Positions 48,527 to 50,908 of a stretch of 64,000 nt of DNA are shown piece by piece. The stretch is from an uncultured Opitutaceae bacterium. GTDB taxonomy: Bacteria; Verrucomicrobiota; Verrucomicrobiia; Opitutales; Opitutaceae. The notes below the pieces were generated by a model that had not been told where the DNA came from, made no database searches, and saw only the letters and a program-made list of their open reading frames with translations. How positions within the stretch are numbered: position 1 is the first letter of the stretch; every line of letters begins with the position of its first letter. The DNA lies in the NCBI GenBank assembly GCA_937902925.1, contig CALFNN010000105.1:124001-188000 (forward strand), read 5' to 3'. Position numbers and translations under genes: made by a program.

Positions 48527-50908
48527 TCAGATCGGAGACCGGACCGGCTTTGCCGCGGCGATTTTTTCACGGAGGTGGGTGATACGCTGCTTGGACTCGC
48601 TGTTGCGGACGGCCATCGCGTAGGCGGCGGGGTCGCCGACGAGAAAGACCTTTTTTCTCCCGCGCGTGATCGCCGTGTAGAGCAGGTTGCGCTGCAGCAT
48701 CATGAAATGCGCCTTGAGCAGCGGGATGATCACGACGGGATATTCGGAGCCCTGACTCTTGTGGATCGTGATCGCGTAGGCGAGCGCGAGGTCGCCGAAA
48801 TCGGCGCGGGTGAACTCGTGGCGGTCGCCATCGAAGTCGGCCTCGAGCGTGCCGCGGTCGCCGTGCGCCGCGACGATCGTGCCGATGTCGCCGTTGAAGA
48901 GGTTTTTGTCGTAGTTGTTGCGGAGCTGGATGACCTTGTCGCCGGGACGGAACTCGCCGGCGGCGGTGCGGAGGCCGCGGGCGTGGCCGCCGGTGGTGGG
49001 CGCAGTCGAACCATTGAGCGCGGCCTGAAGCTGCAGGTTGAAGTTCGCGACGCCGGCGACTCCCTTGTGCATCGGCGCGAGCACCTGCACGTCGGAAACC
49101 GGGTTCGGCCACTTGAGTTTGCGCGGCACGAACTCGGTCACGAGCTCGACGACCTTGCGCACGCAATCGTCGGCGGCGGTGGCGGCGATGAAGTTGAGGT
49201 CGGCCCAGACCTGGGCATCGGCGACGTTTTGCACGACGGGTGGCGGCGAGGCTTCGCCGGAGTTGATCGCGTGCGCCGTGGTGACGATGCCGCTCTGGTC
49301 CTTCTGGCGATAGATGACGCAGAGGCGGGTGACGGGGATTGCAGCCGGGCTCGTTGAGCCCGGTCGGCCGGGGTCAGCGACCCCGGCTACAGCGATCAGA
49401 TCCTTCAGGACGTTGCCGGCGCCGACACTGGGGAGTTGGTCGGTGTCGCCGACGAGGAGGAGATGGGCGCGCGAAGGGACGGCCTGGAAAAGCGCGGCGG
49501 CGAGCCGCGTGTCGAGCATCGAGGCCTCGTCGAGCACGAGGAAATCGGTCGCGAGCGGGGAGCTTTCGTTGGCGACAAATCCGCCGCCCGCGGGGTCGTA
49601 TTTGAGGAGGCGGTGAATGGTCGACGCGAAGCCGCCGGTCGTCTCGGCGAGGCGTTGCGCGGCGCGGCCGGTCGGGGCGGCGAGGTGGAGGCGGACTTTC
49701 TTCGCCTTCAGGATCTCGACGAGCGCGCGCAGCACCGTGGTCTTGCCGACGCCGGGGCCGCCGGTGAGGATCGAGACCTTGTTTTCGAGGGCGGCGCGGA
49801 CGGCGGTGCGCTGCAGTTCGTGATAGACGAGGCCCGCTTTCTGCTCGGCCCACGCGACGGCCGCCTCGGCCTTGATCGGGGGCAGGCCGCTGGCGACGCG
49901 GGTGAGCCGGGCGACAGTAGCCGCGATTTTTTCCTCGGCGCGGTCGTTGGGGGGGAGCTGGACGAGCGCGGCGCCCGGGAGGGGAATGGAGCGATTTGTA
50001 GCCGGGCTCGTTGAGCCCGGTCGGCCGGGGTCAGCGACCCCGGCTACAGTCGCAGCGTGGCGGACGAGGGTCTTGGTTTCGACGAGGGCGGCGATGCGGG
50101 CGGCGAGGAGTTTCGAGTCGGTCTCGAGCTGGGCGGCGGAATATTCGATGAGATCCGTCTCGGGGAAAGCGGTGTGGCCCTCGTCCTGCAGCGTCTCCAG
50201 CGCGTAGACGAGGCCGGCATCGAGGCGGGGCGGGGCGTCGTTGGCGAAGCCGAGGTTGATCGCGATGCGGTCGGCGGTCTTGAAACCGATGCCGTCGATC
50301 TCGCGGGCGACGCGGTAGGGCTCGTTGGTCAGGATCGTTTGCGCCGTGGGGCCGAAGTGCTTCGCGATCTTGACGCACTGGCTCGGCGTGACGCCGTAGG
50401 TCTGGAGAAAGATGTAGAGTTCGCGCTCGGTGCGCTTTTCGTCCCACGCCTGCTTGATCGCCGTGGCGCGCTTTTTGCCGATGCCGTCGACGTCGCGCAG
50501 CCGGGCGGATTCCTCGCTCAGGATCCGGAAAGTCTCGGTCCCGAAGGCGTCGACAATCTTGTTGGCGTAGACCTTGCCGATGCCGGGGACGAGGCCGCTG
50601 CCGAGGTATTTGCGGATGCCGTAAACGCTCGACGGGAGCTCGCTCTTGAACGCGGCGATCTTGAACTGCGCGCCGTGTTGCGCGTGGCGCGTCCATTCGC
50701 CGGTGAGGTGGAGGGTCTCGCCGCATTCGACGCCGGGCAGCGGGCCGACGATGGTGACGGGTTCGGCGCGCTCCTGCGGGTTGGCGCCGCGGGGCAGATC
50801 GGGGCGGAATTCGGCGATGGTGTAGTGGTTCTCCTCGTTGAGAAAGATGATGCGCTCGACGACGCCGGTGAGGGTCGCGGGCGGAGGATGGGAAGCGGAG
50901 TCGGCCAC
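48527..50908 (-). CDS. recD2: RecD2-like DNA helicase with two translated palindromic insertions
   Basis: A 793-residue SF1B 5'-3' helicase from a GTG start. The N-terminal OB-like part is followed by three helix-hairpin-helix segments (GLVPGIGKVYANKI, VDGIGKKRATAIK, IDGIGFKTADRIA), then Walker A GGPGVGKTT, DEASMLD (Walker B), GDTDQLPSVGAGNVLKDL, and the C-terminal UvrD-like DLALAYAITIHKSQGSEYP. Two identical 16-residue blocks (VAGVADPGRPGSTSPA) interrupt it, one before NRSIPLPG and one after LKDLIA, each encoded by a 48-bp palindromic element. Both keep the reading frame and fall where loops are expected, so the helicase may still be active. RecD2 proteins act in DNA repair without RecBC. 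Confidence 0.92.
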   Translation of the reverse strand: MADSASHPPPATLTGVVERIIFLNEENHYTIAEFRPDLPRGANPQERAEPVTIVGPLPGVECGETLHLTGEWTRHAQHGAQFKIAAFKSELPSSVYGIRKYLGSGLVPGIGKVYANKIVDAFGTETFRILSEESARLRDVDGIGKKRATAIKQAWDEKRTERELYIFLQTYGVTPSQCVKIAKHFGPTAQTILTNEPYRVAREIDGIGFKTADRIAINLGFANDAPPRLDAGLVYALETLQDEGHTAFPETDLIEYSAAQLETDSKLLAARIAALVETKTLVRHAATVAGVADPGRPGSTSPATNRSIPLPGAALVQLPPNDRAEEKIAATVARLTRVASGLPPIKAEAAVAWAEQKAGLVYHELQRTAVRAALENKVSILTGGPGVGKTTVLRALVEILKAKKVRLHLAAPTGRAAQRLAETTGGFASTIHRLLKYDPAGGGFVANESSPLATDFLVLDEASMLDTRLAAALFQAVPSRAHLLLVGDTDQLPSVGAGNVLKDLIAVAGVADPGRPGSTSPAAIPVTRLCVIYRQKDQSGIVTTAHAINSGEASPPPVVQNVADAQVWADLNFIAATAADDCVRKVVELVTEFVPRKLKWPNPVSDVQVLAPMHKGVAGVANFNLQLQAALNGSTAPTTGGHARGLRTAAGEFRPGDKVIQLRNNYDKNLFNGDIGTIVAAHGDRGTLEADFDGDRHEFTRADFGDLALAYAITIHKSQGSEYPVVIIPLLKAHFMMLQRNLLYTAITRGRKKVFLVGDPAAYAMAVRNSESKQRITHLREKIAAAKPVRSPI
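49343..49390. repeat. 48-bp palindromic element inside helicase gene, copy A
   Basis: Identical over 48 bases to copy B at 50000-50047. It has two hairpins, CCGGGCTC-GTT-GAGCCCGG and GCCGGGGTC-AGC-GACCCCGGC, and its ends (AGCCGGG and CCCGGCT) are themselves inverted. It encodes 16 residues on the minus strand between LKDLIA and AIPVTRL of the helicase, in the stretch after motif III, where relatives have only a short connector. Confidence 0.9.
50000..50047. repeat. 48-bp palindromic element inside helicase gene, copy B
   Basis: Same sequence, orientation and reading frame as copy A. It encodes the same 16 residues between LVRHAAT and TNRSIPLPG, upstream of the Walker A motif. Flanking bases differ from copy A beyond about one or two positions on each side, so the unit itself, not a larger segment, was copied. 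Confidence 0.9.

Follow-up and report, generated by a model that had tools for sequence, protein, structure and literature searches.

In-frame, intragenic GTAG-tagged REPs have been described in Opitutus terrae, including in repair genes, in the main text of PMC3733652 (Di Nocera et al. 2013). According to that text, the REP-bearing genes include uvrA, which holds two REP inserts, and the DNA ligase gene, and the question of whether in-frame REPs are passengers or change the enzyme was left open in 2013. The dimers reported there for O. terrae and other genomes combine a GTAG tag and a short perfect stem in a head-to-head arrangement, with spacers of 1–2 bp or longer and copies that lie in frame. 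The same features were observed in a palindromic unit present twice in a recD2 helicase gene of the window, by which we mean the whole 64-kb stretch analysed here. The window comes from a different genus-level genome, and the main text of PMC3733652 does not mention recD2; a literature search on Opitutus and REP found nothing beyond this paper. Because its main text already describes in-frame REPs, repair-gene hosts and double insertions in O. terrae, this kind of insertion is known and the recD2 case is not a first. Set against the same text, the repeated filling of two RecD2 loops by unrelated repeat families appears to be a new but modest addition.

The first-pass annotation had likened the unit to the palindromic elements (RPEs) of Rickettsia. 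The analogy holds in kind, as both are short palindromes inserted in frame within protein genes whose product is apparently functional, but the family is another one. RPEs are longer or CGTC-tagged (RPE-4, RPE-6) and are listed in the main text of PMC3733652 as having no known transposase, whereas the window's unit is a dimer of GTAG-tagged REPs, a superfamily linked to RAYTs (REP-associated tyrosine transposases), and a RAYT gene was found in a relative. The unit carries neither the CGTC tag nor the RPE-1 sequence; it behaves as an RPE does without belonging to that family.

The REPtron of S. maltophilia (group 3 TnpAREP, PMC8266576, where RAYT cleavage is also reported for E. coli, S. maltophilia and Marinomonas enzymes) is likewise built on a 23-nt REP with a GTAG, an 8-bp palindrome and a 3-nt loop. 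It belongs to another species and another REP family, and it has a REP-associated HuH transposase, whereas none was found in the window's draft genome. REPIN populations are mostly intergenic. Those of Pseudomonas fluorescens (PMC3116915) resemble the present dimers in being mobile units of two inverted REPs; in contrast, the dimers of the window's family have variable spacers (1, 4 and 10 bp) and about half of those studied are intragenic. We conclude that the two recD2 inserts are very probably inverted GTAG-type REP dimers, REPIN/BIME-like and non-autonomous, which lie in frame and are tolerated at disordered linkers.

Two REP dimers within recD2

The gene and its inserts, at sites S1 and S2, are as follows.

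48527–50908, minus strand: recD2, SF1B DNA helicase RecD2, 793 aa, with two in-frame inserts (open reading frame, Pfam, TIGR01448).
49340–49391, no strand assigned: REP dimer at site S2, residues 507–523 VAGVADPGRPGSTSPAA, absent from clean orthologues.
49341–49363, plus strand: S2 REP half GCAG-CCGGGCTC-GTT-GAGCCCGG, tag with one change (1 mismatch).
49368–49390, minus strand: S2 REP half GTAG-CCGGGGTC-GCT-GACCCCGG (pattern match, 0 mismatches).
49997–50048, no strand assigned: REP dimer at site S1, residues 288–304 VAGVADPGRPGSTSPAT, absent from clean orthologues.
49998–50020, plus strand: S1 REP half GTAG-CCGGGCTC-GTT-GAGCCCGG (pattern match, 0 mismatches).
50025–50047, minus strand: S1 REP half GTAG-CCGGGGTC-GCT-GACCCCGG (pattern match, 0 mismatches).

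The RecD2-like helicase recognised in the first-pass annotation was confirmed by NCBIfam model TIGR01448 (764.8 bits, cut-off 500), and the protein carries the Pfam domains OB_YrrC, HHH_RecD2, AAA_19, SH3_13 and UvrD_C_2. Site S1 is the linker joining the N-terminal HHH/wedge part to the helicase core, and S2 is a loop with motif III DQLPSVGAGNVLKDLI on one side and VTRLxVIYRQ on the other. Both inserts fall, as had been claimed, outside the invariant helicase residues and conserved motifs. Each contributes a coding block of 17 codons (51 bp) in the RecD2 frame, read in both cases as VAGVADPGRPGSTSPA(T/A). Relative to the clean form, the net gain was approximately 51 bp at S1, and the linker was approximately 42 bp longer at S2.

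The unit measures 52 bp: TGTAGCCGGGCTCGTTGAGCCCGGTCGGCCGGGGTCAGCGACCCCGGCTACA at 49997–50048, and a one-base variant (TGCAG...) at 49340–49391. The copies are identical at 51 of 52 positions, with a perfectly matching run of 50 bp (49343–49392 = 50000–50049), and they were the only matches in the window (two observed, none expected from 100 shuffles). The two identical 48-base copies first reported are thus real and unique to the window, but shorter than the actual run and unit; the 16 shared residues are indeed in the same frame but number 17 in each copy. The remark that a length of 48 is divisible by three does not apply to a 52-bp unit with a 51-bp coding block, although the frame used is open as stated. 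The inverted ends, TGTAG...CTACA, were recovered, with one mismatch in the 49340–49391 copy. A T directly precedes the GTAG in 29 of 31 copies of the window's own genome and in 45 of 47 copies of the relative G003, which points to TGTAG and CTACA as the natural ends.

Each REP half is 23 nt long and combines the GTAG tag with an 8-bp perfect stem that closes a 3-nt loop. In the dimer, two such halves stand head-on in inverted orientation around a TCGG spacer common to both recD2 copies. The family consensus is GTAGCCGGG(G/C)TC-NNN-GA(C/G)CCCGG. Members of the GTAG REP superfamily are recognised as short stem-loops (20–40 nt) whose foot bears the tetranucleotide GTAG or a near variant, and the pattern found here, GTAG-CCGGGNTC-NNN-GANCCCGG, has GTAG at this place. 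Instead of the two hairpins per copy proposed at first, the strand takes the form of a single long hairpin at minimum free energy (-25 kcal/mol, z = -6.8); the two short hairpins, each formed by one REP half, are alternatives to it. A hairpin of this stability might act as a regulatory RNA or as an intrinsic terminator or attenuator inside recD2. We hold this to be highly improbable, as no Rfam match was obtained up to E = 1, no U-run follows the hairpin, and the unit is embedded in an open reading frame that encodes conserved helicase domains to either side of it; the RNA element was rejected for want of an Rfam match.

Dispersed copies and the candidate transposase

In the window's own genome, a 6.0-Mb draft that is 95% complete, 26 BLAST matches to the dimer were obtained, and the single-REP pattern matched 47 times, compared to 2 for the reversed control pattern. 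The family is therefore dispersed and multi-copy, with frequent inverted dimers, in keeping with the GTAG REP superfamily. Among relatives, G003 gave 168 matches with at most one mismatch, and 33 REP matches were counted in G017. The mobile palindromic unit tolerated in frame, as postulated in the first-pass annotation, is borne out by these many copies, by the open frame and by orthologues free of the insert.

Nine further genes of the same genome, all supported by Pfam, carry the dimer in the reading VAGVADPG.PGS.SPAT. They encode GcvP (glycine dehydrogenase P protein), an ABC-F ATPase, MnmA, an amidohydrolase, a TIR/TPR protein, RF3, two acyltransferase E2 subunits of 2-oxoacid dehydrogenases, where the site lies between the lipoyl and E3-binding domains, and NuoC, where it lies at the extreme C-terminus. 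The VAG reading is the sole usually stop-free frame among the three of each strand, with the TAG of the tag falling in one of the other frames and usually a TGA of the loop in another. A script classed 18 dimers of the window's own genome, G003 and G017 as intragenic, and all of them start in the VAG reading; the classifier missed two Pfam-confirmed hosts (L007, L012) and detected no dimer in a third (L016). A spacer equal to 1 modulo 3 was observed for 16 of the 18 intragenic and 11 of the 20 intergenic dimers (Fisher p = 0.03). An obligatory spacer rule was discarded for a mere tendency, since dimers with a spacer of 2 may likewise lie in frame.

Only one of the ten dimer hosts of the own genome is a repair gene; no enrichment in such genes was seen among these ten, which argues against a strong repair-gene preference. 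REPs were found within the UvrA and DNA ligase genes of G003 (5,957,605 bp, one closed contig), as listed for O. terrae in the main text of PMC3733652, and G003 probably is this species. The UvrA proteins of two genera hold a REP dimer at a near-equal place just past the UvrA interaction domain, at residue 265 in L250 (G003, ORF 709–3045) and 257 in L236 (G017, ORF 3–2315).

A 190-aa frame of G003 matches the RAYT model NF047646 (101 bits, cut-off 80). The window's REP dimer lies upstream of it and a single REP of that family downstream. RAYT homologues in G023 and G008 are adjoined by GTAG stem variants of their own. The stems flanking L205 (G008) and L203 (G023) are GTAGGTCCTGCTG... and GTAGGCCAGCTC..., and both genes contain an internal stop. 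Comparison of these loci suggests that RAYT and REP stem co-vary. Neither a RAYT nor a Y1_Tnp gene was found in the 95% complete own draft, nor a RAYT gene in G017, and the mover is therefore inferred from a relative. The gene may lie in the missing 5% of the draft; alternatively, this genome may have lost its transposase and left the REPs stranded. We propose that the REP dimers entered recD2 at two surface linkers through a RAYT, a HuH transposase that would act on single-stranded DNA.

Clean and filled sites in RecD2 orthologues

Approximately 95 distinct RecD2 orthologues were compared. The clean length was found in 43 of the 79 measurable linkers at S1 (about 15 aa) and in 52 of 95 at S2 (about 6 aa). 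Neither site is filled in the near sister L103, and the other sister, L102, has S1 filled by a different palindrome of the GTGGGAGGGGC type (GTGG). Since L103 is clean and groups with L102 and the window's lineage with a support of 96, both insertions either are younger than the split or were lost in L103. Helicase orthologues lacking the insert, the comparison suggested by the first-pass annotation, are thus available in this sister and in many others. The linkers vary in themselves, and no clean empty site among the compared orthologues supplies the exact insertion borders.

In recD2, the window's REP family is confined to the S1 and S2 loops, where it recurs in six other genomes among the orthologues, other genera included. 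It fills S1 only in G017, G003, L109 and L123, and S2 in L144, whose S1 is unrelated. Most other carriers have a near neighbour without the unit; independence of the S1 insertions is argued from these neighbours, the clustering test on the tree comprising few labelled rows. A lone off-site match in L180 (residue 414, four mismatches) was within chance. Degraded look-alikes of the unit are present in L072 at S1 and in L067 at S2.

In G023, the contigs C184 and C3 (end of L088, start of L058) break inside REPs at S1 and S2 with overlapping sequences, and the piece of approximately 660 bp joining the two sites is missing, probably because the two matching REPs within a single gene broke the short-read assembly. 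Identical repeats of this kind can mislead a short-read assembly, and the window's own copies might on that ground be artefactual. The chance of this is negligible, as the flanks match the orthologues in frame on both sides and differ between the copies, and genomes assembled independently, including the closed contig of G003, have the element at these very sites.

The two recD2 copies would have arrived close in time from one donor, or one would have been copied from the other by gene conversion. A single insertion followed by intragenic copying is a possible but somewhat less probable history: it would account for the 51/52 identity, for the common TCGG spacer when no other genomic copy exceeds 93% identity, and for the matching REPs at both sites in G023, which belongs to another genus. 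The carriers filled at one site only, L144 at S2 and G017, G003, L109 and L123 at S1, stand against it and indicate that independent single-site insertions do occur.

The two loops as landing places

Within RecD2, insertions of at least eight residues were confined to four internal places, namely near residue 40, at S1, at S2 and at residues 632–645. The 63 expanded S1 and S2 linkers showed a long inverted repeat in 25 cases, a 7-base periodicity in 26, and either signal in 45. The inverted repeats are of several GTAG or GTGG types, and the 7-base signal was present in 41% of linkers compared to 0.6% of the control windows taken elsewhere in these genes. The two loops have thus accepted different repeat families repeatedly across relatives. 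Tandem 7-base repeats occur in L107, L109, L127, L128, L130, L134, L141, L180, L181 and others, with units such as CTCAACC/CTCAACT, CCGCATT, AAATCTC and CAAAACC and peptides like STLNSQLST or PHSALRIPHS.

In the AlphaFold model, pLDDT falls below 50 at the ends of the protein and, internally, only at residues 288–312, 510–521 and 634–641, placing both inserts in predicted disorder. The S2 insert lies opposite a gap when aligned to the sequence of 3e1s, a solved structure of the RecD2 type. The repeated filling of the same loops across the family, together with two copies that are still open and nearly identical, could be read as the mark of a selected RecD2 part, for instance a DNA- or partner-binding peptide. 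This is very unlikely: the clean length is found in L103 and in roughly half of all orthologues compared, the peptides of expanded loops differ completely from one another, the same peptide occurs in nine unrelated proteins, and both inserts are predicted to be disordered. A conserved RecD2 block was likewise rejected in view of the clean orthologues. It is also unlikely, although slightly less so, that the loops are preferred or useful, with single-strand-handling repair enzymes as hosts and with REP and 7-base repeats providing adaptive linker diversity in RecD2 and UvrA.

Neutral tolerance within disordered linkers is most likely, and would explain the recurrence at two loops without a special function. 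The inserts would be translated and neutral, and would have survived because their peptide is stop-free, the frame is kept and the loops are disordered. The locus offers a clean case, seen in many lineages, of genomic REPs turned into protein linkers in two fixed loops of a housekeeping helicase; orthologues with and without the inserts can be set next to each other, and a transposase can be traced in relatives. It allows the question of neutral passengers versus altered repair enzymes, as raised in the main text of PMC3733652, to be tested.

An insertion of another kind was observed in the RecD2 of G024 (L232:137–3493, plus strand), where approximately 350 residues of intein-like appearance interrupt the protein in frame exactly at the P-loop, with the junctions GGPGTGK|AQPRDALVLTPTGF...DDYVVTHN|TTILRAL.
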